A stretch of 64,000 bases of DNA. Origin: a virus. The notes under the pieces were generated by a model. It saw only the letters and a program-made list of their open reading frames with translations, ran no database searches and had not been told where the DNA came from. Every line of letters starts with the position of its first letter. Positions within the stretch are counted from its first letter, which is position 1. Location: IMG/VR virus record IMGVR_UViG_3300032268_001383, positions 34,742 through 98,741 of that record; one strand, given 5' to 3'. The position numbers and the translations under genes are program-made. Positions 1,058-58,753 of this stretch are shown piece after piece.

Positions 1058-3586
1058 TTATCCGAAAAATGTTGATGATGTTTCAAAAATAGGGTCTGTT
1101 GGTAGAGTTGCCCAATTATCTGTATTTGATAGTGTGGCTTTATACGAATATATCTTTTTACCACCTAATGAATTAATGTCGGTTGCATTTACGAATCCTA
1201 AATCTTGCGTGGCTGCTGGACTTAAATTAAGTAAAGCTTTACTTCCTGGTGTAGTTGACCTTAATAGAACTCTGGAGGCATTGGTTGCCGCGGTACACAA
1301 AAGTGCGGTATTGATTGTGTGAGTCTGTGTGGAGACTATTTGATGTGTTGCACCTGCTGATGTCAAACTCAAAGTCCCAACTGTAAATCCAGATGTGGCA
1401 AAAGTTGTACCAGTAGATAGTGATAACGTACCGGTTGCACTCAAAAGATTAGTTAGTGTTAATGTAACACCACCGGTTGATATATTATTCCAAGACATAC
1501 CATTTGTCGCCAAAGTAGTGTTTGCTCCAATATTTAGTGTTGAACCTGTGGTGGTAACAGTTCCTGCCGTGTATGTTAAAGTTCCGGTGTTATAATTTAC
1601 GGTTCCGGAAATTGTAATTGTGCCTGATGTGTTAATAGTTAGGTTATTTCTTAAGGCAAGACCGCCGCCACTCCAAGTACCTGTACCAGTTAAAAATAAA
1701 TTAGTTGTCCCTGTTACTACGTTACCGTTATTATTAGTAAAATTACCATTTATTGAAATCTGATTGGAATTTATAGTCATCGTAAACCCTATATTTGAAA
1801 AGGTCAGATTATTGACAACTAAGTTATTTGGAACATTAAAAGTACCACAGAAAACTACTAAATTTGCTGAATTCAAAACTAATTGTCCCGCACCAGAAAA
1901 AGAATTTGTGGTAACTGAACCACTGCCGAGAGTAAAAGTTCCGGTGGCTGTTAGATTATTTGTAAGTGTAATCGTTGTGTTGCCAGTTATTGTAATATTG
2001 TTCCAGCTAATTCCATTAGTAGAAAGAGTGGCTGCCGAAGTTATTGATAGTGTAGAACTTGTCGTAATGACTGTTCCGGCAGTATAAGTAAGAGTTCCGG
2101 TAGTATAAGTAAATGTACCAGAGACTGTGATAGTTCCTGCTGTGTTAATTGAAAAATTATTAGTTATACCTAAATTAGCAGTTACTGTTCCTGTACCAAC
2201 CATCACAATTGTCGTGGTACCAGTTATACCAGCTCCGCTTAATGTTATGCTTCCACTAATAGAAAGTGTATTACTTGTTAAGGTAAGGGTATTTCCACCA
2301 TTGGTAAAATTTCCACCTACGTTGAGATTGTTTCCAAGTGTAATTGTTATTACACCTCCACTTGTAGTTATATTGTTCCAACTCATCCCATTTGTAGTAA
2401 GAGTAGTCGATTGACTTATATTCAATGTAGAACCTGTGGTGGTAACAGTACCTGCAGTATAAGTAAGAGTTCCTGTATTGTAATATACATTCCCTGATAT
2501 TGTGAGTGTTCCAGCAGTATTGATGGTTAGATTATTTATGATTGTTGGTGTATTCGTAGCACTCCAAGTACCGGTTCCTGTTAAAACAAGATTTGTTGTA
2601 CCCAAACAAATTCCATTATTACTTGAACTCAAATTGCCAGTAATATTTATAGTATTTGAATTTAACGTAACATTACTTGCGCTATTAACCAATATTGCAT
2701 TCGTAACTGTTATATTGTTTGGTAGTGTAGTAGTGCCTGCACTTGCAATTAAGGGTCCAGTAGGATTAAAAGTAAAAGCTCCAGAAAAACTTAATGTACT
2801 GCTATGTGACAATGTCAACGTTCCTGCAATGTTTAAGTTAGAGGACATTGTTATTGTATACGTACTACCGCCCGTTGTAAAATTATTCCAAGCAAAAGTG
2901 TTTGTGTTAAAAGTAGTCGCAGCTGATACGTTTAGTGTTGAACCAGTTGTGACAACTGTGCCAGCAGTGTAAGTTAACGTTCCTGTGTTGTAGTAGACAT
3001 TTCCAGAAATAGTTAGAGTACCAGCAGTATTAATAGTCAAATTATTTCGTATAGCCCCAGTAGAACTATTAGACCAAGTACCTGTACCATTGAAAACTAA
3101 TGAAGTTGTCCCAGAGACAATTGCTGTGGTATTTGATGTTAAATTACCTCCAATATTAAGTGTATTACCATTTATGATAGTAGTCGTAGTTCCACCAAAA
3201 GTTACAGTTCCTGTATTCGTCCAGTTTGCAGATAATGTGTATGTAATAGATGTTCCAGTAAAAGTCAGAGTTCTGGACCAAGTAACACCACCTGAAGTAA
3301 GTGTAGCTGTTCCAACAAGATTTATCCCGCTTGCGCCAGCTTGTGTATAACCTCCTGTTCCAAGATTAATTGTCCCGCTTGTATTTATAACATTATTAAA
3401 AGTGATTGTGCCTGTATAAAGTGCAAAAGTAATACCTATTAGGTTAGCAGTAGATACGTTAACTACAAGGTTACCTGAGGCAGCTGTAAAATTCACATTA
3501 TCACCCGCTAACGGTACAACACCACCTATCCAAGTTGAGGTTGCATTCCAATTACCTCCAGCATTTGATACCGTTCTTGTTGCCAT
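1058..3586 (-). CDS. Thr/Ser/Asn/Gly-rich repetitive fibre or adhesin protein
   Basis: An 842-residue protein dominated by T, S, N, G and short hydrophobics. It is built from four or more imperfect modules of roughly 90-120 residues. A recognisable module core reads NLTINTAGTLTISG, then YNTGTLTYTAGTV, then a TTGSTLNI/LSITS segment and a GMSWNNI segment, and repeats near residues 180-240, 345-410, 480-540 and 675-740. The alternating pattern predicts a long beta-solenoid shaft, as in phage tail fibres and surface adhesins. The last ~60 residues are less repetitive and may be the tip or trimerisation part. The start ATG overlaps the stop of the upstream 89-residue gene (TAATG), so the two are translationally coupled. 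Host binding is inferred from composition and neighbours, not shown. Confidence 0.7.
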   Translation of the reverse strand: MATRTVSNAGGNWNATSTWIGGVVPLAGDNVNFTAASGNLVVNVSTANLIGITFALYTGTITFNNVINTSGTINLGTGGYTQAGASGINLVGTATLTSGGVTWSRTLTFTGTSITYTLSANWTNTGTVTFGGTTTTIINGNTLNIGGNLTSNTTAIVSGTTSLVFNGTGTWSNSSTGAIRNNLTINTAGTLTISGNVYYNTGTLTYTAGTVVTTGSTLNVSAATTFNTNTFAWNNFTTGGSTYTITMSSNLNIAGTLTLSHSSTLSFSGAFTFNPTGPLIASAGTTTLPNNITVTNAILVNSASNVTLNSNTINITGNLSSSNNGICLGTTNLVLTGTGTWSATNTPTIINNLTINTAGTLTISGNVYYNTGTLTYTAGTVTTTGSTLNISQSTTLTTNGMSWNNITTSGGVITITLGNNLNVGGNFTNGGNTLTLTSNTLSISGSITLSGAGITGTTTIVMVGTGTVTANLGITNNFSINTAGTITVSGTFTYTTGTLTYTAGTVITTSSTLSITSAATLSTNGISWNNITITGNTTITLTNNLTATGTFTLGSGSVTTNSFSGAGQLVLNSANLVVFCGTFNVPNNLVVNNLTFSNIGFTMTINSNQISINGNFTNNNGNVVTGTTNLFLTGTGTWSGGGLALRNNLTINTSGTITISGTVNYNTGTLTYTAGTVTTTGSTLNIGANTTLATNGMSWNNISTGGVTLTLTNLLSATGTLSLSTGTTFATSGFTVGTLSLTSAGATHQIVSTQTHTINTALLCTAATNASRVLLRSTTPGSKALLNLSPAATQDLGFVNATDINSLGGKKIYSYKATLSNTDNWATLPTDPIFETSSTFFG

Positions 3587-3855
3587 TAATCACCTAATCC
3601 TAATTTTCTTTGCTCTGTAACCGCTCTGTTGGAAATACCTAATTCGATATCAGCATTAGACTGAGGGTTAAAGTGCGCGATATCAACAATGTGTAAACCA
3701 TATCCTGAAAGATCATATTCTACCTTAGTTTTTACAGTTTTAGTAGTCCAGTTTACTTCTGTGTCAGGGATTTCATTTCCGTTTTCATCATATTGGAATA
3801 TAGTGTGATTATTAGTTATTTCTTCTGTTTCTAAAATTTGATAAGTGTATGACAT
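3586..3855 (-). CDS. Small protein in the fibre cluster
   Basis: An 89-residue, beta-rich, charged protein with no signal peptide or membrane segment. Its first residues (MSYTY) match those of the 407-residue protein at 5014-6237, hinting at a common attachment segment. Its stop overlaps the next start by one base (TAATG). It may be a fibre-associated adaptor or chaperone, judging only from position and co-transcription with the fibre genes. Confidence 0.55.
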   Translation of the reverse strand: MSYTYQILETEEITNNHTIFQYDENGNEIPDTEVNWTTKTVKTKVEYDLSGYGLHIVDIAHFNPQSNADIELGISNRAVTEQRKLGLGD

Positions 3856-3872
3856 ACTTGATTAATCTTTTT

Positions 3873-4985
3873 TTATATTATATAACATTTTATAGATAAA
3901 GTTACTTTTTGAATACCACTACAAGAATCTACATTGAATCTAATAAATTCATTTTCAGAGACTGATGTTGTCCAAGAAGATAAAGCCAAATCTTGATTTT
4001 TACTTTGAGTAGCCAATGTCGGTCTTTCTGTTCCTGTAATACTATTAGAGGCAGATGGTGGGTAATTAGCATAAGTATTTTTCCAAACATCTATTACAAT
4101 ACTTCCTGTTTGAGGACTAAATAGGGTCCAAGAATCAATTGTAAGATTATATGGAATAAAAACATCACCTTTTACACCTGTTGTGATATCACTACCTGCC
4201 CCATCTAATGATATACCAATTGTTCTTATTAGTGAAGAAGTAGAACCTGGACCAGCCGGTCCAGTTGCACCTTGTGGTCCAGTCGCGCCCTGTGGACCTG
4301 GTATTCCTGTGCTAATAGGTATAAATATTAAATCTTCATCATTAGAAAAGGTGTACCCACCCCCTTGATATGAAACCGGAAATTCCCAATAGAAATTCGG
4401 ACTCGACCCAAATTGAGAAGGTGTTGATGATACTAACCAATCTTGGTAGTAATTAGATATAGTGGAGTTTTGTATAATTATCGAATCGTTGATAGAAATA
4501 AAAGACAAAAATAAATCAATGTCAATATTGTCCTGAGTTGTCATATTAACAAAAATAGAAGTTGAGCTCGATTGTGTAACATTGTTCCAACTTAAATATC
4601 CAGAACCTGGGTCACCACTATATATTGTTGTGTTTGCCTTATAATCATAAAAACTCAGTGATCTACCGTTAGATCCAGCAGGACCTGTTGGTCCAGCAGG
4701 ACCTGTTACCCCTATTGAGCCTATTGGACCCGTTGGACCTGTTGGGCCATTGGCACCTGTGGCACCTTGTGGTCCTGTCAACCCTATCGACCCAGTGGGT
4801 CCAGCAGGTCCTGTTGCCCCCTGAGATCCAGTCAACCCAGTATCACCAATTTGTCCTTGTGGTCCGATTGGATTAACATTTCCTAAAGTTTCCCAAGCAT
4901 AACCATTCCATTTCCAAGAATCACCTGATGTTGGATTTGTATAAACTTGACTAAAAGTCGGATTTATTGGAAATATTATTGGCAT
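3873..4985 (-). CDS. Collagen-like tail fibre protein
   Basis: A 370-residue protein. The N-terminal ~35 residues contain a short W-containing segment ([12 protein letters not shown]) typical of phage and Bacteroidetes fibre starts. Residues ~40-105 are an almost unbroken Gly-X-Y tract ([17 protein letters not shown]), and a second short tract lies near 225-250. A globular C-terminal domain of ~120 residues follows. Gly-X-Y tracts in phage fibres form collagen-like triple helices that act as trimeric shafts. The gene lies between other fibre genes on the minus strand, 28 nt from its upstream neighbour. The receptor-binding part is probably the C-terminal domain (inference). Confidence 0.75.
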
Positions 4986-5013
4986 ATTATTCGTAATAAC
5001 TTAAATTTATATC

Positions 5014-6237
5014 TTATCTACTTATTTCTTCCCAGTCTAATGATGCAACAACCGTATCATTAGAACTATCAGAAGCAATTATTAAGGTAAGTTCAAACGG
5101 TGTTGATGTCAATCCGTTTCTTTCTAATTGAAACTTGAAAAGTGCCTCTTTTAAAATGTCAACTTGACTTGATGATAGATTTGTTGAGCTAAAAAACCCA
5201 CTTGCAAGTATTCTACCACCCGCAAAAGTAGCACCTGTAATATTGTATTCTACTGAAGAATTTGTTCCAGCGCTCACCCAACTACCCCCTGTTGTAGTAC
5301 CTGTTGCTACCATTTGCCAATTAAAATTACCCGTACTGATTGGCAAAATAGATAGAGCAGTTAGAATTACTATACCGTCGAGTCTTGTAGCTGTTAAGCG
5401 TAAACTTATTACCGGATAAAACGTTCCGGCTGTTCCTAATGTTCTTGGAGAATTAATAGGAATACCGATTGCTTGTTGTAGTCCATTAAGTTCATATCCA
5501 CCTTCCGATAATACAGATGAACATATCTGCTTTAAGGTACTTGCTCCACTCGTATCAGACGTATTTGTTATTTCATATCGTAATGGTAATGATGCTGTTG
5601 TGATATAAGTACTTGCGATAATATTAGCATGGTGAAACTTATGACAAACATAAAAATTTCCATTTATAACAAACCCAATTCTAACTGTTCCAAGACCTAA
5701 CCACTCAATATCCATAAATAAGATTTGAGCTTTTGTAATATCTAGTACTATGCCAGAAGGCCCGGTGCCATTCATAGTGTCAACATTCCATGATGATTGA
5801 TTTACTAGAGATTCAGTAACTACTCCAGTAACTAAACTTCTTTCAACAAAGCTAAGAGTAGAGTTGTCCAATTGAATATATAAACCATTTTCTGCCCCAT
5901 AATATCCAACCCTTTGTCTAAGACCAGTCTTAGCAGGGCTCATTACAAATGTGTTCAAGTTCAGTAAGCTTTTACCAGGCTGATATGAAAAAACCTTAGT
6001 AGTCTCTCTAATAATCTGAGAACCTGAAGCAGCAGTTACATTTAAGTCAACTAAGCCTTGAGTCAAATTAAATGTGGCGGTAGCTCCAGTTGCATCACTT
6101 GTTGACCATAATCCGTTATCTGCAAATCTATGACTTGAATCAAATAGAGTAAAGGGGTTACTAACTCGTAGTCTACCAAAAGCATCGAAATTTGGTGTGT
6201 TAGCAAATTTTATTTCATCTGTGTAAGTATATGACAT
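5014..6237 (-). CDS. Virion structural/appendage protein with DAFGRLRVSNPFTLFDS motif
   Basis: A 407-residue protein starting MSYTYTDEIKFANTPNFDAF and carrying DAFGRLRVSNPFTLFDS near residues 18-34. From memory this motif recurs near the N-terminus of structural proteins in many tailed phages, where it precedes a beta-rich jelly-roll-like body. The rest is beta-rich with no transmembrane segment or catalytic motif. It sits between two collagen-like fibre genes, 7 nt downstream of one, so a role in a tail or neck appendage is likely. The exact structural position is unknown. Confidence 0.6.
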   Translation of the reverse strand: MSYTYTDEIKFANTPNFDAFGRLRVSNPFTLFDSSHRFADNGLWSTSDATGATATFNLTQGLVDLNVTAASGSQIIRETTKVFSYQPGKSLLNLNTFVMSPAKTGLRQRVGYYGAENGLYIQLDNSTLSFVERSLVTGVVTESLVNQSSWNVDTMNGTGPSGIVLDITKAQILFMDIEWLGLGTVRIGFVINGNFYVCHKFHHANIIASTYITTASLPLRYEITNTSDTSGASTLKQICSSVLSEGGYELNGLQQAIGIPINSPRTLGTAGTFYPVISLRLTATRLDGIVILTALSILPISTGNFNWQMVATGTTTGGSWVSAGTNSSVEYNITGATFAGGRILASGFFSSTNLSSSQVDILKEALFKFQLERNGLTSTPFELTLIIASDSSNDTVVASLDWEEISR

Positions 6238-6244
6238 AATTTAT

Positions 6245-7102
6245 TTATATTGTTTTCCATAGTCCATTCCTAAAAAGAAAGGTAAGTGACATATTATTTA
6301 TTTTCATCAAAATATCAGAATATCCATTAATTGATTGTGTGCCACCTGGATAAACCCTAATACCCCTATTAAAATTAGAAATTCCACCTACTTCATCAGC
6401 AATAGTTATAATTTTTCCGTTATCAAGTGAAGCAGTACCAAGTGGTAGGTAAACTTCACAAATACCTCCTGTATATATTACGCCATAGTATTCATATTCA
6501 AAATCTGTTGAAAAAGAAGCTGAATTAATTCCTGTCGTAGTATAAGGTATATTATTTATCTGAGTAGGTTGAAACCAATTTGAACTTGTACCGTCACTTA
6601 TCCAAACATATTCATAACCTGTTTCTGAATGAATCCATCTGGCTCCAATGTTAGAAGCAGTCGGAACAATCGACTGAAAATAAAACTCACCAAAACCTGT
6701 TGCACCTGCCGGACCCGTAGAGCCTGTCGGTCCTGTGGATCCTGTCGGTCCTGATGGACCTGTTGGTCCTATTCCAAATATTGATGAAGTCCAAGAAGCC
6801 ACACCATTAGAATCACTAACTAAATAAAAACCATCCTGTTGAGAACCATCTGTTAATTGTAAACCACCATTTATTACTAAAACACCGTTCTGAAAAGTTA
6901 AATCAGGTACCGTTGTTAATCCAGAAGTTGTGCCATCTGAAATAATCAATTTATTGAGTAGTGGATTATTTACGATTGCACCACCAGTAATATTGATTAA
7001 ATTTCCATTACCATCATAAAATTTCCCATTAACATATTGAACCAATCTTGGATATAGCTCTGGTACAGACTGTTCAATTTTTAGGGGATTATATCTAGCC
7101 AC
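6245..7102 (-). CDS. Collagen-repeat fibre protein, first gene of the minus-strand fibre operon
   Basis: A 285-residue protein with an N-terminal ~110-residue domain, a Gly-X-Y tract near residues 112-137 (GPTGPSGPTGSTGPTGSTG) and a C-terminal beta-rich domain of ~145 residues. The architecture is a trimeric fibre with a short collagen-like hinge. The start codon is GTG (MARYNPLKIEQ), chosen because no ATG lies in frame upstream. A TTAATATATA box ends 24 nt upstream on the same strand. The following fibre genes run in the same direction with gaps of 7-30 nt or overlaps, so one transcript probably covers them down to 1058. Confidence 0.7.
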   Translation of the reverse strand: MARYNPLKIEQSVPELYPRLVQYVNGKFYDGNGNLINITGGAIVNNPLLNKLIISDGTTSGLTTVPDLTFQNGVLVINGGLQLTDGSQQDGFYLVSDSNGVASWTSSIFGIGPTGPSGPTGSTGPTGSTGPAGATGFGEFYFQSIVPTASNIGARWIHSETGYEYVWISDGTSSNWFQPTQINNIPYTTTGINSASFSTDFEYEYYGVIYTGGICEVYLPLGTASLDNGKIITIADEVGGISNFNRGIRVYPGGTQSINGYSDILMKINNMSLTFLFRNGLWKTI

Positions 7103-7125
7103 CTTTAACTTTTAGTATTTATTTT

Positions 7126-7135
7126 TATATATTAA
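7126..7135 (-). promoter_or_regulatory. Candidate phage promoter box (TTAATATATA) for the fibre operon
   Basis: On the minus strand the sequence reads TTTTTTAATATATAAAAA, 24 nt before the GTG start of the 285-residue fibre gene. The same box precedes genes throughout the window on both strands. By analogy with the T4 late promoter (TATAAATA) it is a candidate phage-specific promoter. Confidence 0.5.
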
Positions 7136-7153
7136 AAAAGACAATTTTAGAAT

Positions 7154-7651
7154 ATGAAAAAAAGGGAAATAAAAAAATTGGCAAAAAAGATATTTGGTCA
7201 TGCAAAAGAATTTGAAAGAAAAAAATATAATTCGGAAGAGTGTTCTATAAAAGAAATTTCGGAATCAATAGAATACTGCCCATATGACGAAAAAATATCT
7301 GAAAAGTTTTTCAAATTTGTAACCAATCTTGTCAAAGTTAAAGATAAGTTGAGTATTGACTATTATAGAGAAGGAATTAACATCTTCTGTGACTTAAACA
7401 GATATAAAAGTAATAAATACACAACTGAGTCTAATTTTGAAATTAGGATAGACAAAGAAGGATTCAGACTCAGAAGAGATTACGGTAGTTATCTTAGTTT
7501 TACTGATATTACTTTCTTAGAGAAAATAAAACCTGTTATTAAAGAAAAAAATGAATTAGTCTCAAGAGAAAAAATAGTCGAGACAGTTGATGACTTGACA
7601 ATCGAGTTGGGACTGAGTCGAGAAAATAATTTAGATGAAATTTTAGCATAA
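7154..7651 (+). CDS. Unknown basic protein upstream of the gp46-like gene
   Basis: A 165-residue, Lys- and Glu-rich soluble protein with no recognised motif. It begins MKKREIKKLAKKIFGHAKEF and is the first gene of the plus-strand operon that continues through the gp46-like ATPase to bS21 and DnaJ. The stop is 2 nt before the ATPase start, implying translational coupling. A role in recombination or replication is possible from position only. Confidence 0.55.
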   Translation: MKKREIKKLAKKIFGHAKEFERKKYNSEECSIKEISESIEYCPYDEKISEKFFKFVTNLVKVKDKLSIDYYREGINIFCDLNRYKSNKYTTESNFEIRIDKEGFRLRRDYGSYLSFTDITFLEKIKPVIKEKNELVSREKIVETVDDLTIELGLSRENNLDEILA

Positions 7652-7653
7652 AT

Positions 7654-9369
7654 ATGTATATAAAAGAAATAAAAATTAAGAACTTCAAATCATTTGGAAA
7701 TTCAGAACAAACATTAAAATTGAGTACCGAAAAGGGTGAATTGATACTACTATCGGGAAGTAACGGAAATGGAAAAAGCTCTTTAATGAATTCTGTGGAT
7801 TTTTCACTTTATGGCAAATGTAAGGGTAATAAGAAAAAATGGGCAACACAATCAACTCTACCAAATAGAATTAATGGTGGTGATCTTTCAGTTCATATCA
7901 AATTCGAATCCGGTGGAACTGAAGTGGAAGTTATCAGGGGAATCAGTCCGAACTTTTTGAAGCTTTATGAAAATGGTGTAGAAAATGATAGAGCAGGAAA
8001 GGCAAATATAGACGAAAAAATAGAAAACTATATTGGAATGGATTTAGAAACTTTTAAATCCTTTATTTCACTAAGTATCAATGACTTCAAAAACTTTATT
8101 TCTCTATCCAATGAAGAAAAACAACTCTTATTAGATAAATTGTTTAATCTCGAAGTAATTAATATCTTAAATCAAATTTTGAAAGATTTAAATAAAAATA
8201 ATAAACTACAATTAACTAAATACGATTCCGAGATTTCTACTTTAGAGGAATCAATTCAATCTATTAAAGCAAGTATTCAAAAGGCAGTCGAGAAAGAAAA
8301 GTTAAACATTCAACTTGAAATTGATGAGATTAAAGTGCAAATGACTTCTAAAAAGGAAGAATTTTTATCTTTGAAAGAAAAAGTAGAAAAGATAAAGCAA
8401 AAAGAATTGGAATTAAAGACTGAAAGTGATAGGGAAAGAGAACAATATATTACTCTTAATTCTGAAATAAAGTCTGCTCAAAAAGATATAGATCTTTATG
8501 ATTCTGGTAAATGCCCAACTTGTGCAACAGATTTCAATACAAATCATTTTATTTCACTAAAAGATACCCTAGTAGAAAAGAAGGGGGGTTTAGAATCAAT
8601 TAGAGCTGAAATTGAATCTAATATGAAATTGATTAGAGAAAGGCAAACTAAACTTCAAACTTTATCTGATTCAACTACAAAATCTTTTAATGATATAAAT
8701 TACTTACTTAAAAACTATAAAGGTCAAATCGATAAATTAGAATCACAAAGAGAAAGAGAAAAAGGTGAATCAAATTCTAATGTAGTTGAGTTTGAAAATA
8801 CTATAAATGAGTTAAATATTAGAAAAGAAAGGGGAATAGAGCATCAAACACTATGTAGAGAAAAAGAGTCCTATTATAAAGAGTTGTCTAAAATATTTGG
8901 TGAGGATGGTGTTAAAAGGAGTATTATTGCTGGAATCATTAAACCAATTAATCATTTCATCAGTGGTAATATCTCTAAGATGAATTTACCTTTTCAGGTA
9001 GAATTGGACGAAACATTTACTGCACAAATAAAACAATTTGGGATGCCGATTGAGCAGGATTCGCTTTCTACTGGTGAGACAAAATTAATAAATCTTTCTA
9101 TATTGACTGCTTATTTGAAGTTAATTAGAACTAAAAAGAATATAAATATTCTTTTTTTGGATGAGGTATTTTCTTCTATTGACATTGAAAATATCGAAAA
9201 AATATTAAACTTATTGAAATCTTTTGCTAATGAATATAAGATAAATATATTTGTAGTACATCACGCTATGATGAATGAAGAATTATTCGATAGAATTTTA
9301 AGAATAGATAAGAATGTATTTACGGAAATTATTGAGGTTGAATTAGAGAAACAAATGGGTAATGTCTAA
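7654..9369 (+). CDS. 46: gp46/SbcC/Rad50-like recombination ATPase
   Basis: A 571-residue SMC-like ATPase. The Walker A motif GSNGNGKSS is at residues ~35-43. Long coiled coils (~180-280 and ~300-400) flank a zinc-hook CPTC at residues 287-290. The ABC signature LSTGETKL is near 470, and Walker B LFLDEVFSS is near 500 with a switch His (VHHAMM) after it. Its length is close to T4 gp46 (560 residues). With a gp47/SbcD-type nuclease this family resects DNA ends for recombination-dependent replication and degrades host DNA. No gp47-like gene lies in the window; it would have to be elsewhere. The end overlaps the next gene by 8 nt. Confidence 0.88.
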   Translation: MYIKEIKIKNFKSFGNSEQTLKLSTEKGELILLSGSNGNGKSSLMNSVDFSLYGKCKGNKKKWATQSTLPNRINGGDLSVHIKFESGGTEVEVIRGISPNFLKLYENGVENDRAGKANIDEKIENYIGMDLETFKSFISLSINDFKNFISLSNEEKQLLLDKLFNLEVINILNQILKDLNKNNKLQLTKYDSEISTLEESIQSIKASIQKAVEKEKLNIQLEIDEIKVQMTSKKEEFLSLKEKVEKIKQKELELKTESDREREQYITLNSEIKSAQKDIDLYDSGKCPTCATDFNTNHFISLKDTLVEKKGGLESIRAEIESNMKLIRERQTKLQTLSDSTTKSFNDINYLLKNYKGQIDKLESQREREKGESNSNVVEFENTINELNIRKERGIEHQTLCREKESYYKELSKIFGEDGVKRSIIAGIIKPINHFISGNISKMNLPFQVELDETFTAQIKQFGMPIEQDSLSTGETKLINLSILTAYLKLIRTKKNINILFLDEVFSSIDIENIEKILNLLKSFANEYKINIFVVHHAMMNEELFDRILRIDKNVFTEIIEVELEKQMGNV

Positions 9370-23486: not shown

Positions 23487-24455
23487 ATGATAGTTACAGA
23501 AAAAGTATTAATAGAAGTTAATAATAAAAATATCCATATTTTTAGGAAAAAATTAGGTTGTGATATAGAAATAGGATTGAACGAAATCTCTGTTAGAGAT
23601 TTATCTAAGGGTAGTCATTTCAAAGTAGAAGTGAAGTGTGATTCTTGTGAAAGTATTAATAATATAGAATGGAGAGCCTATTTGAAATTCACAAAAGATG
23701 AAACTGATATTTATTGTTGTAAAAAGTGTAACAATGTTAAAGTCCGTAAGACAAATTTGGAAAGATACGGTGTTGTCTGTAACTCTCAATTAGAAAGTAA
23801 TAAAAAAAAGGTAAAAGAAAAGTCACATTCATCAAATATAAAAAGAATAGACACGCTTGAGAAGAAATATGGTGAATTTTATTTTGATGTTATATCTGAA
23901 AAAAGGAAAAAAACTATGTTCAATAAGTATGGTGTACAAAGCTCATTTCAAATTGAGGAAACAAAGGAAAAAAGGAAAAAATCACTAAAGGAAAAATATG
24001 GATCAGAAACATTCAATAATCCAGACAAAACAAAAAATACAAGAATATGTAATGGAACTCAAATAAATGATGACTTGATAAACGATTTCATAGACTATAA
24101 AAAAATTGCTGTCAATAGAACAAATACTATTTATAACAACAATAAAGATATAATTAATCCATTAAAATACAAACGTTCTCAAAATGATTATCATATAGAT
24201 CATAAATTTTCATTAAAGCAAGGATTTTTGAATAATATACCAATAGAAATAATAACACATCCTTTAAATCTACAAATGATATATTGTAAAGAAAACTTAT
24301 CAAAACAAGATTCTTGTTGTATATCTCTTGAGGATTTGTTGATTTTAATCTTTGAAAACGACATCGAAGTAAAAATAAATCATACTTACATAAAAGAAAA
24401 ATACTCTAATATCAAAGCAACCGTTGAGAACATACTCAAAGGTATCAAAAAGTAA
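23487..24455 (+). CDS. Free-standing HNH homing endonuclease
   Basis: A 322-residue protein. The N-terminal ~80 residues contain two Cys pairs (VKCDSCES and CCKKCNN) after a VNNKN...DLSKGSH segment. This region is clearly homologous to the N-terminus of the endonuclease at 54039-55646. Residues ~90-190 hold repeated K-x-T-x-x-x-K-Y-G-V units like DNA-recognition modules of phage homing enzymes. The C-terminus is the nuclease: YHIDHKFSL near 234 supplies the first His-Asp-His, with HPLNLQMI and ENLSKQ after it (HNH/N and H). It stands alone in plus orientation between minus-strand genes, as mobile homing genes do. Confidence 0.8.
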   Translation: MIVTEKVLIEVNNKNIHIFRKKLGCDIEIGLNEISVRDLSKGSHFKVEVKCDSCESINNIEWRAYLKFTKDETDIYCCKKCNNVKVRKTNLERYGVVCNSQLESNKKKVKEKSHSSNIKRIDTLEKKYGEFYFDVISEKRKKTMFNKYGVQSSFQIEETKEKRKKSLKEKYGSETFNNPDKTKNTRICNGTQINDDLINDFIDYKKIAVNRTNTIYNNNKDIINPLKYKRSQNDYHIDHKFSLKQGFLNNIPIEIITHPLNLQMIYCKENLSKQDSCCISLEDLLILIFENDIEVKINHTYIKEKYSNIKATVENILKGIKK

Positions 24456-51130: not shown

Positions 51131-51167
51131 AAATTAGAAAGTATTCTCTTGGAATCCTTTCTAATTT
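51131..51167 (-). terminator. Intrinsic terminator after the Ro60-like gene
   Basis: The stem is AAATTAGAAAG (51131-51141) with CTTTCTAATTT (51157-51167). On the minus strand it is followed by TTTTTAG. It overlaps the last bases of the Ro60-like gene. Confidence 0.8.
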
Positions 51168-52611
51168 AAATCTGAATAGAGTTAATCCTATTAAGTAGAG
51201 CCTTTTTATCAGTCTTTAAAAACTTCATCACATCAAATACTTTATCAGAAAATCCAGCCAAACAATAAATTTGGTTTTCCGGAAATTGTAAAGTAGACAT
51301 CCCTGCCAAATCCCAAGAAAAAACATGCGGGTTAACATTGTATTTCTTTTTATAAGCATTGTATTCTTTTGTGGGTGTTGTATACCCAATCCATGATTGG
51401 AAATCAGACAATAGTATTATGTTATCATAAGATTTATTTGCTTTTTCAAAAACAGATTTAACATTAGTGCCACCACCACTAAATCTGAATTTATTTCTTA
51501 GTGAAATAACTGTATCAGATGGGTCATAGTTGATATACTGAGCGTTAGTGGCAAATGTCATTACATCACACTCATTTGCCTTAATCAACATCGCACCGAA
51601 TAAAGAAGCAATTTCAGATGGTGTACCAGACATTGAGCCAGATACATCTATTACAACCAAAGTTTCTCCATCAAGTTTGGGTACATTCATAACTGATATA
51701 TTCAATGCTTCATTGATAGCCTTTAAAACATCTCTTACTTCCTTATTGGAATCAAGTTTGGATATTTCATCGTAAGCCTTAGAGAATCTAAATGGTAGAA
51801 CTTTAGACTTTGCAATCAAGTTTTCATCAACCAACATTTCACAAGCCTTAGTTACACTTTTGGGTGACTGTGTAATAATATTACGAAGATTTCTTAATAA
51901 TCCAAAATAACCAATCCTTCTAGTGCTAAGAAGTTCATCCCAAGCATCAGCTTTTAAATCTTTCAATTCTTCTTCATCATTAGCCTTTTGTCCAGCAGAT
52001 GTAAGCATACTCTCCCAAGTCCCAGTGCTTTTTAAATCGCCGTTTATTAATTGAGATAGAGCCTCGCCATTCTTTTTTGTAGGAGTAGGGTGAACCAAGT
52101 TGACAATATCAACTAGTTTAACATCTTTATTTTCACTACGATACTTTCCGAGCTGGTAAGCATCGAATTTATCAAATGCTTTTGCAAATCCTTTTTTCAA
52201 AGAATTTGGGAATTTTGGACTTTTAATATCAGTTTTATTTTGTAAGTAATATGAAAGGATTTCTGACATATCATCTACACGGCTAACTACTTTTGAGTAG
52301 AAGTTTTTAGACCATTCTTTCCCAGAAATCTCTGAAGCCAATTCACCCGCTAAAGCATGTGTAATACTTCTCATACCGAATTCATCTCTTGCAAAAATAG
52401 CAGACTTTGCCAAAAATTCTTTGTCTTTGATTTTTTTGATATATCCTTTCATATCTGATAGGGATTCATTAGCCTTTCTATAAAACTGGTCTTTAACAAA
52501 TGAAGTCAATAATAATGAAACAAAAGCCATTTCATCTGACTGCTTGTAAGCTTGTCCACCGGCTCTATTTTCTACTTTTTCTACAATTTTTTTTGTATTA
52601 AACTTTGACAT
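51166..52611 (-). CDS. rsr: Ro60/Rsr-like TROVE and vWA domain RNA-binding protein
   Basis: A 481-residue protein. The N-terminal ~290 residues read as a TROVE module of HEAT-like helices (FLAKSAIFARDEFGMRSITH, the phage counterpart of the Ro60 A-x-x-A-R-x-x-x-x-x-R-S-x-S/T-H segment; YQLGKYRSENK; RIGYFGLLRNLRNI). A von Willebrand A domain follows from ~310, with MIDAS D-V-S-G-S-M-S-G near 320, a Thr in SGGGTNV and a later Asp in LLSDFQSW. Ro60 forms a ring that binds Y RNAs on its outside and misfolded RNA in its hole, and helps RNA quality control. Bacterial rsr genes usually lie beside a Y RNA gene; here a structured leader precedes the gene. Homologues occur in a few phages. Confidence 0.88.
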   Translation of the reverse strand: MSKFNTKKIVEKVENRAGGQAYKQSDEMAFVSLLLTSFVKDQFYRKANESLSDMKGYIKKIKDKEFLAKSAIFARDEFGMRSITHALAGELASEISGKEWSKNFYSKVVSRVDDMSEILSYYLQNKTDIKSPKFPNSLKKGFAKAFDKFDAYQLGKYRSENKDVKLVDIVNLVHPTPTKKNGEALSQLINGDLKSTGTWESMLTSAGQKANDEEELKDLKADAWDELLSTRRIGYFGLLRNLRNIITQSPKSVTKACEMLVDENLIAKSKVLPFRFSKAYDEISKLDSNKEVRDVLKAINEALNISVMNVPKLDGETLVVIDVSGSMSGTPSEIASLFGAMLIKANECDVMTFATNAQYINYDPSDTVISLRNKFRFSGGGTNVKSVFEKANKSYDNIILLSDFQSWIGYTTPTKEYNAYKKKYNVNPHVFSWDLAGMSTLQFPENQIYCLAGFSDKVFDVMKFLKTDKKALLNRINSIQI

Positions 52612-53279: not shown

Positions 53280-54026
53280 TCAAGAGCCACAAGATTCGCA
53301 ACCATCAGGTCCTGAATCTAAGCTACACTGGATTTCTGCCATTTTTTGTTCTTCAGTTTTAGTTTCTTGAACTGTAAACTTAACAGCATCTGCAGCCGAT
53401 TTAGTTCTTAAATAATACATACCAGTTTTTAGATTGTATCTTCTATCTCTATAAAATTTAGGATTACCTTCTTTATCACAAACAACTTGGTAGTTTTCAT
53501 CATTTTCCGGAATAATTAATTTTCCAGCTGAATCAGTCAGGAAAGTACGTTTACCCCAACCATAGAAGTGCATAGACGTTAATTTACCAAAATTAACATT
53601 ATCCATAAATATGTTCATTGATTGAGTTTGATCGATAAAGGCACCTCTATCTGCAGCCAATTCAATAACGTCCTTTTGTTTAACTTCCCATACAGTCTTG
53701 AAAATCTCTTTCAAATGAGTTGGAATTTCCGGTATATTTTGAACTGAACCATTCTGTTGAATAATTTTATTCTTAACTGATTCATTCCAAATACCAAGTT
53801 TAACTAATTCTTTTACCAAATACTTATTTACAATAATAAACTCACCAGAAATTACTCTTCTTAAATATAAATTTGATGTCTGTGCTTCACAAGATGCTTC
53901 ATTACCGAGTATTGATGCTGTATTATGTGAGACACATCCATTTTCTAAAAGATATTCATGTGCTTCATTAACTTCGATATCCCAAGTTGGTTTTAGACCA
54001 GATTTACTTATTTTTTTTACTTTCAT
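53280..54026 (-). CDS. nrdA: Ribonucleotide reductase NrdA C-terminal fragment with intein-2 C half
   Basis: A 248-residue protein. Residues 1-35 are the C-terminal half of a split intein, ending W-D-I-E-V-N-E-A-H-E-Y then G-C-V-S-H-N (blocks F and G), followed by Thr as the +1 residue, which is suitable for splicing. The extein (213 residues) starts TASILGNEASCEAQTSN and continues the NrdA barrel. It ends in GPDGCESCGS, whose Cys-x-x-Cys is the redox shuttle tail of class I enzymes. The N partner is the fragment ending MPTAS before an intein Cys at 56003. Class Ia RNR makes dNTPs with NrdB; no nrdB is in the window. Confidence 0.85.
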   Translation of the reverse strand: MKVKKISKSGLKPTWDIEVNEAHEYLLENGCVSHNTASILGNEASCEAQTSNLYLRRVISGEFIIVNKYLVKELVKLGIWNESVKNKIIQQNGSVQNIPEIPTHLKEIFKTVWEVKQKDVIELAADRGAFIDQTQSMNIFMDNVNFGKLTSMHFYGWGKRTFLTDSAGKLIIPENDENYQVVCDKEGNPKFYRDRRYNLKTGMYYLRTKSAADAVKFTVQETKTEEQKMAEIQCSLDSGPDGCESCGS

Positions 54027-54038
54027 ATTTGTTTATAT

Positions 54039-55646
54039 TTATTTTTTTATATTTAAAATTTTATATTTAGTCATTCCAACTCCATATATTTTATAAAACC
54101 CCATTTCTTTCATTATTTCAGATTCGGATTTATTATTTTTTTCGGGATATAAGACTGATAATTTTTTCTTTGAATAGTTAAACCTATGTTTTCTATTTTT
54201 ACTAACTACCCACCAATAATTTGGTTTTGTTTTATGACAAAATTCAAATCCTATCTTCTCATAGGTACCACCCTTGAATATTGAGTTGTCAACATATGTT
54301 ATTATCTCATTATAATCTTTGTTTTTAAGGAAAAAATTTAATAGTCTACTAGCCGATCCAACAACAATACTATTGAGTTTATTACAGAACCTTACTAACT
54401 CCATATCTTTTCTCTTTTTAGAAAAACACATAAGTGAAACTAGCTCATCATTATATATTAATCCTATTTTATATTTAGAATTTGTATAACCTTGTATGTG
54501 ATTTTTTGTTAAGAAGTTCCTAACTATTTTATTATCTTCTATAAATTTTACCTGACATTTTCTTGCAAAAATTTTATTTTCAACTAAATTCAATTTTGTT
54601 AAAATGATAGATTTTACAATTTCTCTTTTTGTTTCCCAGTCATCTTCCCATATATAAATCAAATCTATATCCATTTTTTTCAACTCAATCATTTTATTTA
54701 AATGATAATTTCTATCTTTGAATTTATCACTATGCCAAAATAGTCCATTACATTCAATTGCTAATTTTAAATCCGGTAAATAAATATCAATTTCTCTTTT
54801 ATTTTTATATTTAAAATTAGTAATACGCTCACCATCATAATTATCACAAATAAAATTATATATTTGTCTTTCGAAATTAGATGATGAATTATTATATGGA
54901 TCATTACATAAAGTACAAATCTCCTGATCATTATTATATCTATAGTAGAGTAAATTTGTATCAATTTCAAATGTATCTTTGCATTTAGAGCAATTACAAT
55001 AGTTTAGGTATCCTTCTTTTTTGATAAATTCTAAATCTGCATATTTATTAATTATATTAGAAAGTATACTATCTTTAAATTTGGACACAAAATCTTTTTT
55101 TTGAGAAGGATAATCAACTCCATACCTATTCTGGTTTGTTTTAACTATTTTTTCCTTAATTATATTATTTTTTGCAACATTGTCGAATCCCCAATTAGAA
55201 ATGTTTGTTTTCCTTCTCTTATCAATAGAATCTTTAGTTTTACTTCCTTTTATGGCTAATTCATTAACACCGTCCATTTTTAATGAATTATCCACTCCAT
55301 ATTTTTGTAACATTGTTTTCCTATATTTAGAATAAACATTTATATTTTGTGACGGATATTTAACTCCAAGTTTGGATAAATTTGTTTGTTCGCTTTTACT
55401 TAAAGCGCATTTAGATGAACACGCATAATAATTATACTTACTTATATTAGAAATATATGACTTGTATTGTATACTTTTTTCACATCCACAAACATCACAT
55501 TTACACATAACAAGGACATGGCTATTTTTTGATAAATCTGATATATCTATTTCTATTTCATCACCTACTTTTATATTATAGTAATTTGATAATTTCTTAT
55601 AATTATTAGGATTTACTCTAATAATAACCTTGTCTTGCATTAACAT
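54039..55646 (-). CDS. Free-standing Vsr-like homing endonuclease inside nrdA
   Basis: A 535-residue protein. The N-terminus (VNPNNY...DLSKNSH, CKCDVCG, ACSSKCA) is homologous to that of the HNH enzyme at 23487. Residues ~90-190 hold repeated T-x-x-x-Y-G-V-D modules. Two further Cys pairs (CNCSKC, CTLCND) follow. The C-terminal domain has REIDIYLPDLKLAIECNGLF near 280-300 and DLIYIWEDDW near 335, the Vsr/EDxHD-type nuclease core. It lies exactly between the N and C halves of intein 2 in nrdA, the arrangement described as a fractured gene with split intein and free-standing nuclease. Confidence 0.8.
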   Translation of the reverse strand: MLMQDKVIIRVNPNNYKKLSNYYNIKVGDEIEIDISDLSKNSHVLVMCKCDVCGCEKSIQYKSYISNISKYNYYACSSKCALSKSEQTNLSKLGVKYPSQNINVYSKYRKTMLQKYGVDNSLKMDGVNELAIKGSKTKDSIDKRRKTNISNWGFDNVAKNNIIKEKIVKTNQNRYGVDYPSQKKDFVSKFKDSILSNIINKYADLEFIKKEGYLNYCNCSKCKDTFEIDTNLLYYRYNNDQEICTLCNDPYNNSSSNFERQIYNFICDNYDGERITNFKYKNKREIDIYLPDLKLAIECNGLFWHSDKFKDRNYHLNKMIELKKMDIDLIYIWEDDWETKREIVKSIILTKLNLVENKIFARKCQVKFIEDNKIVRNFLTKNHIQGYTNSKYKIGLIYNDELVSLMCFSKKRKDMELVRFCNKLNSIVVGSASRLLNFFLKNKDYNEIITYVDNSIFKGGTYEKIGFEFCHKTKPNYWWVVSKNRKHRFNYSKKKLSVLYPEKNNKSESEIMKEMGFYKIYGVGMTKYKILNIKK

Positions 55647-55664
55647 AATAAATATTTTTTTTAT

Positions 55665-57516
55665 TTAATGTTGAACTATATCATCATTTTCTTCTAATTC
55701 ATCAGCTCTTACCCAAATTTCTTCATTATTTCTATTTACTAAAAATTGGTGATTTTCTGAGCAAGTGAATATAGTACCATCTTCCATTTCAATATCCAAT
55801 GTTTCAACCAAACCATTATAGAAAATTTTTTCTGATTTCTTAATGCCAAATCTAGTCTTAACATATAATGGTTCTTTAAATACTATCCAACCTTGTTCAC
55901 TTGTTTTTTCAATTTCTCTCCAATCTATTAACATTTCGTCCATAATTTGTTGATATGATTTATTACCTTCTAATGTCTGAATAATAGTTGATGATACTTG
56001 ACAACTTGCTGTTGGCATAATACAAGTTGTAAGTGAATTTCTAACACCAAATTTTAGGATATCTTCTCTCAATTTCTTCCAATCCCATCTATCTGTTGGT
56101 GTTGCTCCCCACAAATCAAATTGAAACTTACCCTCAGAAAGTGGAGAACCATTAAATGTAGCATAAGGTCCTTGAGTTTTAGATAAATCACAAGATGCTC
56201 TAAGAGCCCCATAGTAGATTGTTTCAAAAATTTGCTTATTAACTAATTTAGCTTCAGTAGAATCATAAGGAATACCCATCAAGAAAAATACATCAGCAAG
56301 TCCTTGAACACCTAATCCAATAGGTCTATGACAGAAGTTAGAGAATTTAGCACCAGGTGAAGGATAAAAATTCGAATCTATAACATTGTTAAGATTTACT
56401 GTTGCAGAATAAGCCACTTCATACAACTTATTATAGTTATAAGTTTTATTTTTATTAACAAATTTAGTAAGTGAAATAGATGCTAAGTTACAAACTGCTG
56501 TTTCATTCACCGATTCTTCTCCCCAAAACTCCGAAAGGTTAAGTGAATCTAATAATTCTTTATTTTGTAGAATTTCTGATTGAGATTTGGTGATTCCCGA
56601 ACATTCCACGATCTCCGAACAGAGATTGGAACTTCTTACAAGACCTATATTAGATTGATTAGATTTCTCATTAATGGCATCTTTATAAAGAATATAAGGT
56701 GTACCAGTTTCAACTTGCGATTCAAGTATTTTATTCCATAATTCACGAGCTTTAATGGTCTTTTTACCATATCCTTTAGTTTCATAACTTAAATACAGAT
56801 TTCTAAATTCCTCGCCATAAGAATCATTCAAACCTGGACATTCGTGTGGACACATAAGAGTCCATTCTTCGTCTAAATCAACTCTCTCCATAAATACATC
56901 GTTTGTCCAAAGTGCTAAGAATAAGTCTCTTGCTCGCAATTCTTCTTTACCTTGATTTTTTCTCAAATCAAGAAATTCCATAATATCTGCGTGCCAAGGT
57001 TCCATATAGATGGCTATACTTCCTTTACGTTTCATTTTGTTATCGTTAGGCTCTTTATCCTAACATCTTGTGATTTCTCACAAGTTCAGACTATATCTTC
57101 ATCTTTCGATGTCTGGTATTCGTGTCAGTTTGGGGTGTTCTACCTTACTACTGTTAGTCGTTGAACCTTTTTCTTATTCCTAAGAAACTCGGCTGCTGAT
57201 TATCCAATTCTTTCAATTTTTTGACATTCAAGTTTGATATTACTATCTACTTTGTAGTTTGAAAGACTCTAAGGAACTCCCAGCAATTAGCCAGATTTTT
57301 TAATGTGGAAGCAGACTATTTACCACCACCGTTATGAACCATTCCCAAACCTTCAACAATATAATTGTGTTGGTTTTCAACTTCTAGGTCATAAACTTCA
57401 ATATCTTGTTGATTTTCAATTTCAATATCACTAACTGTATTGAAATTCAAATTTTCAATTAGTAGATTCAAATCTACCGGGTCTTCTATGTATCCTGTCG
57501 GATTGTCTGTAATCAT
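55665..57516 (-). CDS. nrdA: NrdA middle fragment: intein-1 C half, extein (interrupted by a group I intron), intein-2 N half
   Basis: After removal of the intron (57033-57321) the frame is continuous. It has 62 residues of intein-1 C half (ending V-Y-D-L-E-V-E-N-Q-H-N-Y then G-M-V-H-N), then the extein GGG-KRKGSIAIYMEPWH onward (346 residues), then 112 residues of intein-2 N half starting Cys at 56003. The extein holds NLCSEIVE, with the radical-site Cys, and ends MPTAS, the conserved C-terminal barrel motif. The residue after the intein-1 HN is Gly, not Cys/Ser/Thr, which is unexpected for a class 1 intein. Without RNA splicing the frame stops at 57316. The middle piece must join the N piece (57548-58753) and C piece (53280-54026). 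Confidence 0.8.
57033..57321 (-). ncRNA. Group I self-splicing intron (289 nt) in nrdA, no ORF
   Basis: Splicing after GGTGGTGGT and before AAACGTAAAGG restores G-G-G-K-R-K-G-S. The 5' exon ends in U and the intron ends in G, as group I introns require. The intron has AATTGCTGGGAGTTCC (P4/P5-like), ATAATCAGCAGCC (P3/P6), TTCAACGACTA (P7 5' strand) and GATATAGTCTGAAC (P7 3' strand), typical of phage IA-type introns. A guide GCUUCCAC near the 5' end pairs with the exon end (U-G at the splice site, then 6 further pairs and one U-U mismatch). It contains no endonuclease ORF and interrupts NrdA 9 nt after the intein-1 insertion point. Confidence 0.88.
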
Positions 57517-57547
57517 ATTTTTAATTTTTTTTTGTTTTTATTTAGAA

Positions 57548-58753
57548 TTAATATTTCAAAATTTTATCTCCTTTCAAAAGTTCTTTTGCTGCAATCCATT
57601 CTATCTGATAGACACCATTTTTAATACCTTTTATAATATTTTCTCTTGAAATATCACTCGATAAATTTCTAATAACTAATATTTGATGTTCGCCAGTAAC
57701 TTTATTGATACCGGATTCCGTTTTGATTACAATTATATCTTCTGATTTTTTATTGAAAGTTTTCTTTTTTGTAACTTTATTAAATGTTCCATCAGAAGTC
57801 AGAACTTCGTCACCTTCGTTGATGACATCAATATTGATTGTACCATTTTTAGTGATTACTTTACTATCTTTTGTAAAACATTGATCTACCGCTCTTGCAG
57901 TTTCATTGTAGATTTTAAGAAAAGGAATAATACCATTTGATGAACCATTTGTACCGGCAATATAGGTATTTTTTGCTCTAACTTTATTGAAAGAAATACC
58001 AATTCCACCTGCGTTTTTAGAGATTTGTGCGGCTTCTTTCAAAGTATTAAAAATGCCCTCTATAGAATCCGATTCTACATCAAGGAGAAAACAACTTGAT
58101 AATTGTGGTCTATTAGTACCAGAATTAAATAGAGTTGGAGTAGCATGTGTATAATAGCTTTCAGAAAGAAGGTTATAAGTTTCTAAAGCTTTTTCAATAT
58201 TTTCTCCCCAAATTTGTAGAGCAGTACGCATATACATATATTGAGGTCTTTCTGCAACCTGCCCATTTAATTTTAGTAAGTAACTCCTCTCTAACACTTT
58301 GTATCCAAAATAATCAAAATTGTGGTCTCTTGAATGTACGATTGCTGAATTCAACTGGTCAGCATGTTTTTTAACTAAGTCAAAAAACTTGAGTGAAACA
58401 ACTGGTGAATGTTTTCTTGTATTTGGATCCACATAGTTATACAAGTCTGTAACTGTTTCACTAAAACTTTTATTAGTTTCTTTGTGCAGAGCCGTAATAG
58501 CTAATCTAGCAGCTAAGGTTGCGTAATCGGGATGTTTGGTTGTTAAAGCGGCGGCTGTTTCCATGGCTAACTGATCCAATATCCTTGTTTGTATATCTGG
58601 CGTAATTCCCTCAATTACTTTCTGAGCTACTTCAAATGGTTGTACCCATTTTAAATCTAGTCCATAAGTTTGTTGGTTGATTCTCTCTAATACTTTATCC
58701 AACATCACTGGCTCCTTTTTTCCATTTCTTTTTGTTACTTTTATGTTTATCAT
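57548..58753 (-). CDS. nrdA: Ribonucleotide reductase NrdA N-terminal fragment with intein-1 N half
   Basis: A 401-residue protein. It starts with an ATP-cone-like region (KVTKRNGKKEPVMLDKVLER), followed by the large-subunit barrel with PQLSSCFLL (redox Cys) and KNAGGIGISF near residues 220-260. The extein ends at 291 (RAVDQ). From Cys292 (57880) a 110-residue intein N half begins, C-F-T-K-D-S-K-V-I-T and later T-G-E-H-Q-I-L-V (blocks A and B), then stops. The matching C half starts 31 nt downstream at 57516 with no nuclease gene between. NrdA reduces NDPs to dNDPs. The start has no Shine-Dalgarno sequence; a GATATATATTC element lies upstream. Confidence 0.85.
   Translation of the reverse strand: MINIKVTKRNGKKEPVMLDKVLERINQQTYGLDLKWVQPFEVAQKVIEGITPDIQTRILDQLAMETAAALTTKHPDYATLAARLAITALHKETNKSFSETVTDLYNYVDPNTRKHSPVVSLKFFDLVKKHADQLNSAIVHSRDHNFDYFGYKVLERSYLLKLNGQVAERPQYMYMRTALQIWGENIEKALETYNLLSESYYTHATPTLFNSGTNRPQLSSCFLLDVESDSIEGIFNTLKEAAQISKNAGGIGISFNKVRAKNTYIAGTNGSSNGIIPFLKIYNETARAVDQCFTKDSKVITKNGTINIDVINEGDEVLTSDGTFNKVTKKKTFNKKSEDIIVIKTESGINKVTGEHQILVIRNLSSDISRENIIKGIKNGVYQIEWIAAKELLKGDKILKY

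Follow-up and report, generated by a model that had tools for sequence, protein, structure and literature searches.

The subject of this work is an interrupted gene for the large subunit of class I ribonucleotide reductase (RNR), nrdA, located on the minus strand at 53280-58753 of a 64,000-nt stretch of viral DNA (the window, comprising positions 34,742-98,741 of the 98,741-base IMG/VR record IMGVR_UViG_3300032268_001383). Two split inteins divide the gene there, so that a single NrdA of 850 extein residues is encoded as three polypeptides. In inteins of classes 1, 2 and 3 alike, a +1 Cys, Ser or Thr receives the acyl group (PMC4031507); the first intein of this gene is followed by Gly. From the sequence evidence, the fractured gene is probably functional, with intein 1 ligating its exteins through attack of the freed Gly amine on the Cys1 thioester. 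A large family of inteins in this core enzyme consistently has Gly there, in some cases within the only RNR gene found, which implies either that the textbook rule of a Cys, Ser or Thr directly after an intein is incomplete or that RNR works as fragments.

In the route proposed, a group I intron would excise itself, joining the intein-1 C half and its GGG to the middle part of NrdA, and three polypeptides would be made: NrdA-N with the intein-1 N half, the intein-1 C half with NrdA-M and the intein-2 N half, and the intein-2 C half with NrdA-C. The two split inteins would then pair and ligate the exteins into one NrdA of 850 residues. Intein 2, with a homing-endonuclease gene at its split point and Thr at +1, would act as an ordinary class 1 intein. 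In intein 1, Asn cyclisation would come first and free a GGG... N-terminus, whose Gly amine would directly attack the Cys1 thioester to give a native Gln-Gly bond. At this RNR site +1-Gly inteins form a large and probably mobile family, of which intein 1 would represent the split branch.

Architecture of the fractured nrdA locus

Translations of the open reading frames (ORFs), together with Pfam and Rfam matches, support the reading of this locus as a fractured nrdA that contains two split inteins, a group I intron and a nuclease of the homing type. A preliminary description, made from the sequence alone, had placed these same elements here, in the minus-strand order NrdA-N/intein-1 N half, intein-1 C half/NrdA middle/intein-2 N half, nuclease, and intein-2 C half/NrdA-C, with exteins of about 850 residues; the present analysis agrees on every position and on the order, and the extein sum is 291+346+213 = 850 aa. 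The first ORF (58753-57548; minus strand, as are all parts of the gene) encodes NrdA residues 1-291 (57881-58753; ATP cone, all-alpha domain and the start of the barrel, ending in ...ETARAVDQ), followed by the 110-aa N half of intein 1 and a stop (57548-57880; Cys1, blocks A and B; Hint_2, 1e-5). After a spacer of 31 nt (57517-57547, assigned to no strand), which holds no nuclease gene in the ORF list, the ORF at 57516-57316 encodes the 62-aa C half of intein 1 (57331-57516; blocks F and G, ending in ...GMVHN; Intein_splicing, 2e-6) and GGGK before a stop in the unspliced RNA. The ORF at 57035-55665 contains the middle extein (56004-57032; 343 codons after GGG, with the active-site Cys region SSNLC) and the 112-aa N half of intein 2 with its stop (55665-56003), and the ORF at 54026-53280 contains the 35-aa C half of intein 2 (53922-54026, ending in ...CVSHN) and the C-extein of 213 aa with its stop (53280-53921, ending in ...CESCGS).

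The RNR barrel was matched in all three NrdA pieces (Pfam, E 2e-23, 1e-122 and 3e-36), at consecutive model positions 1-72, 72/75-395 and 392-515. The domains of a class I large subunit are present (PF02867, PF00317, PF03477), TIGR02506 scores 381 bits on the middle piece, and every nrdA segment is free of internal frameshifts and stops. The Pfam Intein_splicing and Hint matches on the intein halves, with E values of about 1e-5 to 2e-6, fall under the curated cut-offs. An intact nrdA elsewhere in the genome had been named as evidence to look for against this reading; no second NrdA barrel was found in the 98.7-kb record.

Intein 2 has the features of class 1, namely Cys1, a His-Asn end and a +1 Thr (MPTAS/CQVSST...VSHN/TASILG; insertion site MPTAS/TASILG). 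The nuclease gene expected between the halves of a split nrdA intein is present here (54039-55646, also delimited as ORF 55646-54039; 535 aa, free-standing), and there is none at intein 1 in the window. Its product matches DUF7487 (8e-18) and the PHROGs homing endonuclease family phrog_3339 (5e-103), and no match was found among PDB sequences. It had been called Vsr-like; the homing-type assignment stands, and the Vsr part has weak support, as the restriction-fold match to MTES_1575 (3.7e-5) lies below cut-off. In the relative L004, intein 2 is uninterrupted, forming a cis mini-intein within a 715-aa ORF, with a short linker where the window has the nuclease. Another nuclease lies between the halves in L021 and L129, and in L084 the intein is split without a gene at that point. 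A second free-standing, DUF7487 homing-endonuclease-like gene occurs at 23487-24455 on the plus strand of the window.

The group I intron (57033-57321, 289 nt, without an ORF) starts nine bases past intein 1, and its in-frame stop two codons in ends the intein-1 C-half frame in unspliced RNA. It matches Rfam RF00028 with 68.7 bits (gathering 50; E 2.5e-15); a permissive Rfam run over 5.7 kb gave no match, though the gathering-threshold run on the same bases did. The features of the group are present: a conserved core, a P1 helix with U.G at the 5' splice site, and a terminal G. Joining the junctions GGT^AAATAG...AAAATG^AAACGT restores GGGKRKGS, as in uninterrupted relatives, whose intein-free loop VDQGGGKRKG is matched exactly. 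In L004, L021/L022, L084 and L318, orthologous introns interrupt the gene between the same two codons. In an alignment of five introns, 48 pairs (P1, P3, P4, P6a, P7, P8, P9 and P9.1) are paired in 97.5% of cells, and 13 pairs have changed on both sides; as the structure was named from the window sequence, the percentage is biased towards the window, which is not the case for the compensatory changes. No shuffle of 500 reached either the paired fraction or the double-change count, and slid controls were 35-54% paired. In each of the five introns P1 pairs with the GGUGGUGGU exon (57322-57330 in the window) and places U.G at the 5' splice site; in L021 and L084 a synonymous GGU-to-GGA change mends the sole P1 mismatch. 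This use of 57322-57330 excludes an intron lying inside intein 1, as the Rfam model start at 57373 would have it; the poor Rfam alignment upstream of the true start is a further reason against it. The three codons GGU GGU GGU (57322-57330) are both the intron 5' exon, or P1 target, and the +1 to +3 Gly of the C-extein in the loop Q-GGGKRKG, so that nine nucleotides serve at once as RNR loop, intein +1 to +3 and P1 target. The same intron contains a 205-aa nuclease ORF in L084 (4363-4980).

Intein 1 and the loop-2 intein family

Intein 1 (VDQ/CFTKDS...GMVHN/GGGKRKG) retains Cys1, the T..H of block B, the Asp of block F and the His-Asn at its C-terminus. It is followed at +1 by Gly, in place of the Cys, Ser or Thr required by class 1, and so no +1 side chain is available for the usual transesterification; the standard splicing route implied earlier by the expectation of a spliced NrdA of ~95 kDa is barred for this intein. 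Class 3 was likewise rejected, as Cys1 is present, F:4 is Asp and there is no WCT motif. A shifted boundary that would regain a +1 nucleophile fails too: the Q/GGG join exactly equals the empty site of relatives, and no other Asn fits. The insertion loop, Q-GG-x-KR, is taken by us to be RNR loop 2, the effector-substrate communication loop, a site at which the +1 Gly would not be easily changed to Ser or Cys.

The intein most resembles bacterial intein-like (BIL) domains of type A, with which it shares Cys1 and a His-Asn end without a +1 nucleophile (PMC4031507). The best PDB sequence match of the intein-1 profile is the BIL 2lwy. When the intein 1 of L004 was rejoined by reading its stop as Gln, a HINT fold was predicted with a mean local confidence score (pLDDT) of 82.8, and its PDB matches were inteins, BIL domains and hedgehog domains. 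Type-A BILs are found in non-conserved proteins, within their variable regions, and are mostly cleaving (PMC7765530, PMC4031507); intein 1, by contrast, interrupts a conserved loop (QGGGKRKG) of NrdA, a conserved core enzyme in which exact ligation is required. Among relatives, the ratio of nonsynonymous to synonymous substitution rates (dN/dS) is about 0.19-0.27 for intein 1 and about 0.05-0.14 for intein 2, rough values since dS is near saturation. The ratio is low in every segment of the locus, exteins and intein halves alike, which points to purifying selection on both inteins; conservation of exteins, intein halves and intron under such selection in relatives is supported by these comparisons.

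Intein 1 does not stand alone. Searches made without regard to the +1 residue (with NrdA homology, the N-junction pattern RAVDQCF and a protein search of one bacterial order) returned loop-2 inteins, split and cis, with Gly at +1 wherever the junction was readable. A second scan, which selected the HN/GG pattern in viral contigs and GTDB genomes, gave many further loop-2 inteins in viral contigs and about 85 cis inteins in GTDB, mostly of 378 aa, among at least 110 matches listed; the latter come from Chlamydiota, Pseudomonadota, Actinomycetota and Verrucomicrobiota. Across 96 full-length cis members, in which His-Asn and Gly are fixed by the search pattern, Cys1 is invariant (96/96), as is H66 (96/96), and T63 (94/96) and the block F Asp (95/96) are nearly so; no extra near-invariant Cys or Ser was found near the C-terminal active site of these 96. 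The intein is carried by 22 of the 63 genomes of the bacterial order searched, an occurrence that suggests a sporadic and probably mobile element. In ten bacterial genomes (G003, G011, G014, G015, G016, G056, G061, G066, G070 and G075) the interrupted nrdA is the sole PF02867 gene, and no NrdD (PF13597) was detected. Hosts with a single RNR include Thiothrix lacustris and Thiolinea disciformis; the ligated junction predicted for such hosts reads AVNQ-GGK. Since RNR is essential and the interrupted gene is the only one detected in these ten genomes, the simplest inference is that loop-2 +1-Gly inteins do splice without a +1 nucleophile.

Several matches were set aside. L323-L340, retrieved through the N-junction pattern RAVDQCF, had no NrdA match; a minority of the DNA-pattern matches (e.g., L206 and L217) proved to be chance and were dropped after translation; and the NrdD intein of Lactococcus phage 949 has +1 Cys and belongs to another gene and site. 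Bacterial loci L244, L276, L233, L260 and at least about 80 others have chromosomal NrdA inteins of this family, ~378 aa long and followed by Gly. A split loop-2 intein at L183 (9996-11055) has Ser1 in place of Cys1 together with +1 Gly, for which the acyl intermediate would be an ester without a +1 nucleophile, chemically even harder. In G065 (L364, L366, L371) and G076 (L365, L367, L370), the middle of the loop-2 intein is diverged (about 57% identity) or shortened, and the splicing ends are ~89% identical to a Thiothrix intein, which may reflect recombination or endonuclease replacement.

Proposed ligation without a +1 nucleophile and its alternatives

Sortase uses an oligoglycine acceptor, and by analogy the unhindered Gly-Gly(-Gly) N-terminus released from intein 1 could be a natural acyl acceptor. 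For type-A BILs, Asn cyclisation followed by attack of the freed amine on the N-terminal thioester has been proposed (PMC4031507), and this BIL-type route is the only one with which intein 1 is compatible. Several points weigh against ligation of a functional NrdA by these means. Known type-A BILs for the most part cleave instead of splicing (PMC4031507); a 2026 engineering paper regards Cys, Ser or Thr as minimally needed for trans-splicing (PMC13123727); an InBase survey set insertion cassettes as XXX-[C/S/T]-XXX (PMC3359363); the completeness of the ten sole-RNR genomes is not stated; and the 98.7-kb record, possibly a partial one, yielded no NrdB.

The strongest alternative, though an unlikely one, is that intein 1 cleaves at both ends without ligation and that NrdA works as non-covalent pieces. 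The +1 Gly takes away the normal ligation route, cleavage is the usual outcome in BILs (PMC4031507), and the NrdA of Aeromonas phage Aeh1 is known to work in two pieces (PMC3653736). However, the break would fall in a glycine-rich loop at the specificity and active site, where free termini should hurt, and the strict upkeep of splicing residues and the exact empty-site frame would be left unexplained; cleavage alone would also have to apply in the ten bacterial genomes in which no other RNR was detected. Somewhat less probable still is splicing with another side chain as acceptor, either the Lys of GGGK or, in the manner of class 3, a nucleophile inside the intein. Class 3 inteins do relay acyl transfer through internal residues (PMC4031507), but the lack of a WCT motif, the invariant Cys1, the near-constant F:4 Asp, and the lack of any additional near-invariant Cys or Ser close to the C-terminal active site of the cis members speak against such a relay.

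Two further possibilities are very improbable. In the first, the middle piece would initiate on its own at the ATG at 57035, formed by the last intron bases, leaving intron splicing and intein 1 dispensable. Such an ATG is present at the exon-2 junction in the window, L004, L021 and L084, but L318 has CTG there and no ATG nearby, so translation of its middle piece needs RNA splicing; in addition, NrdA-N would keep an uncleaved 110-aa tail and the conserved intein-1 C half would have no purpose. The second, equally remote, is a decaying locus without active NrdA, its elements being remnants, to which the heavy fragmentation and the missing NrdB lend some colour, but which conflicts with the intact segments, the low dN/dS throughout, the compensatory upkeep of the intron helices and the retention of similar architecture in several divergent phages.

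Ligation by the freed Gly amine is thus preferred for intein 1, whose chemistry could represent a new intein class. Whether the loop-2 RNR inteins as a whole form a widespread, unrecognised mechanistic class, defined by Cys1 and His-Asn without a +1 nucleophile and by efficient ligation, with C-terminal cleavage as the first step and a direct attack by the freed Gly-Gly amine on the Cys1 thioester as the second, is judged an even call. If this is true, intein 1 of the window is a member that is split in nature and splices in trans, and it would be a scarless split-intein ligase needing no Cys, Ser or Thr; if ligation is efficient, split versions would free protein ligation by inteins from its main sequence constraint.

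Relatives, known systems and neighbouring genes

The combination of two split inteins and an intron had been considered extreme, a view overtaken by relatives with more. L021/L022 (201- and 78-kb contigs; 1568-9050) contain three split inteins, the intron and three nuclease-like ORFs, from which NrdA would be made as four polypeptides. In these contigs a nuclease lies between the halves of intein 1, and a further split intein occupies SSNL/C, where its +1 Cys is apparently the RNR active-site Cys; the ORF within it has an N-terminus that is GIY-YIG-like by eye and no family match, and the third nuclease-like ORF belongs to intein 2. L084 has the same three splits plus the intron. A comparison with phages lacking one element, which had been suggested, is provided by L318 (347-kb contig), which has intein 1 only, split with a nuclease, plus the intron; L004, too, is simpler in having intein 2 unsplit. 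These sites are empty in many members of the clade (L005-L020). Such a graded series favours the stepwise invasion of a single gene over an artefact of assembly. In the intein tree, split forms cluster together with modest support. Apparent insertions of -84 nt at site 3 in distant NrdA were rejected as length differences. The series, from empty through cis, split, and split with nuclease to two or three splits with an intron, offers material for studying gene fracturing.

Phage nrdA fractured by split inteins with free-standing homing endonucleases was already known from Dassa et al. 2009 as cited in PMC3653736, and the preliminary description had mentioned fractured genes of this kind from metagenomic phages. 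Going by that citation, the window resembles those genes in having nrdA exteins on adjacent ORFs with intein halves and, at intein 2, a nuclease between them; it differs in having two split inteins (three in L021 and L084) with a group I intron, and an intein 1 with +1 Gly and no nuclease. An intron and an intein share one RNR large-subunit gene in SPbeta as well (PMC3653736), whereas here the intein is split, the intron is 9 nt away, and three Gly codons are shared between intein and P1. The NrdA inteins of Campylobacter phages (CP220, CPt10, vB_CcoM-IBB_35 and the NCTC12673 group) are homologous to intein 2, with 34-41% identity over its N half; in contrast, the loop-2 +1-Gly intein is unmatched in cultured phages, and a tblastn search of 50,697 phage records with two loop-2 inteins as queries found none inserted here. 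In Aeh1, NrdA is also in pieces through homing-endonuclease insertion, but there mobE splits the gene without a self-splicing intron and the parts work as separate genes (PMC3653736), whereas the window has complete intein halves at every break.

No report of +1-Gly RNR inteins was found in searches of open-access papers, a scope outside which InBase and the original fractured-gene paper lie, so priority is uncertain. As far as checked, three features appear to be new: the presence in one gene of a group I intron together with two or three split inteins, the 9 nt on which the constraints of RNR loop, intein +1 to +3 and intron P1 coincide, and the +1-Gly intein family itself, split and cis.

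Elsewhere in the window, a TROVE/Ro60-like RNA-binding protein with a vWA domain is encoded directly downstream of nrdA (51166-52611, minus strand), and a protein with collagen-like repeats is encoded at 3873-4985, also on the minus strand.

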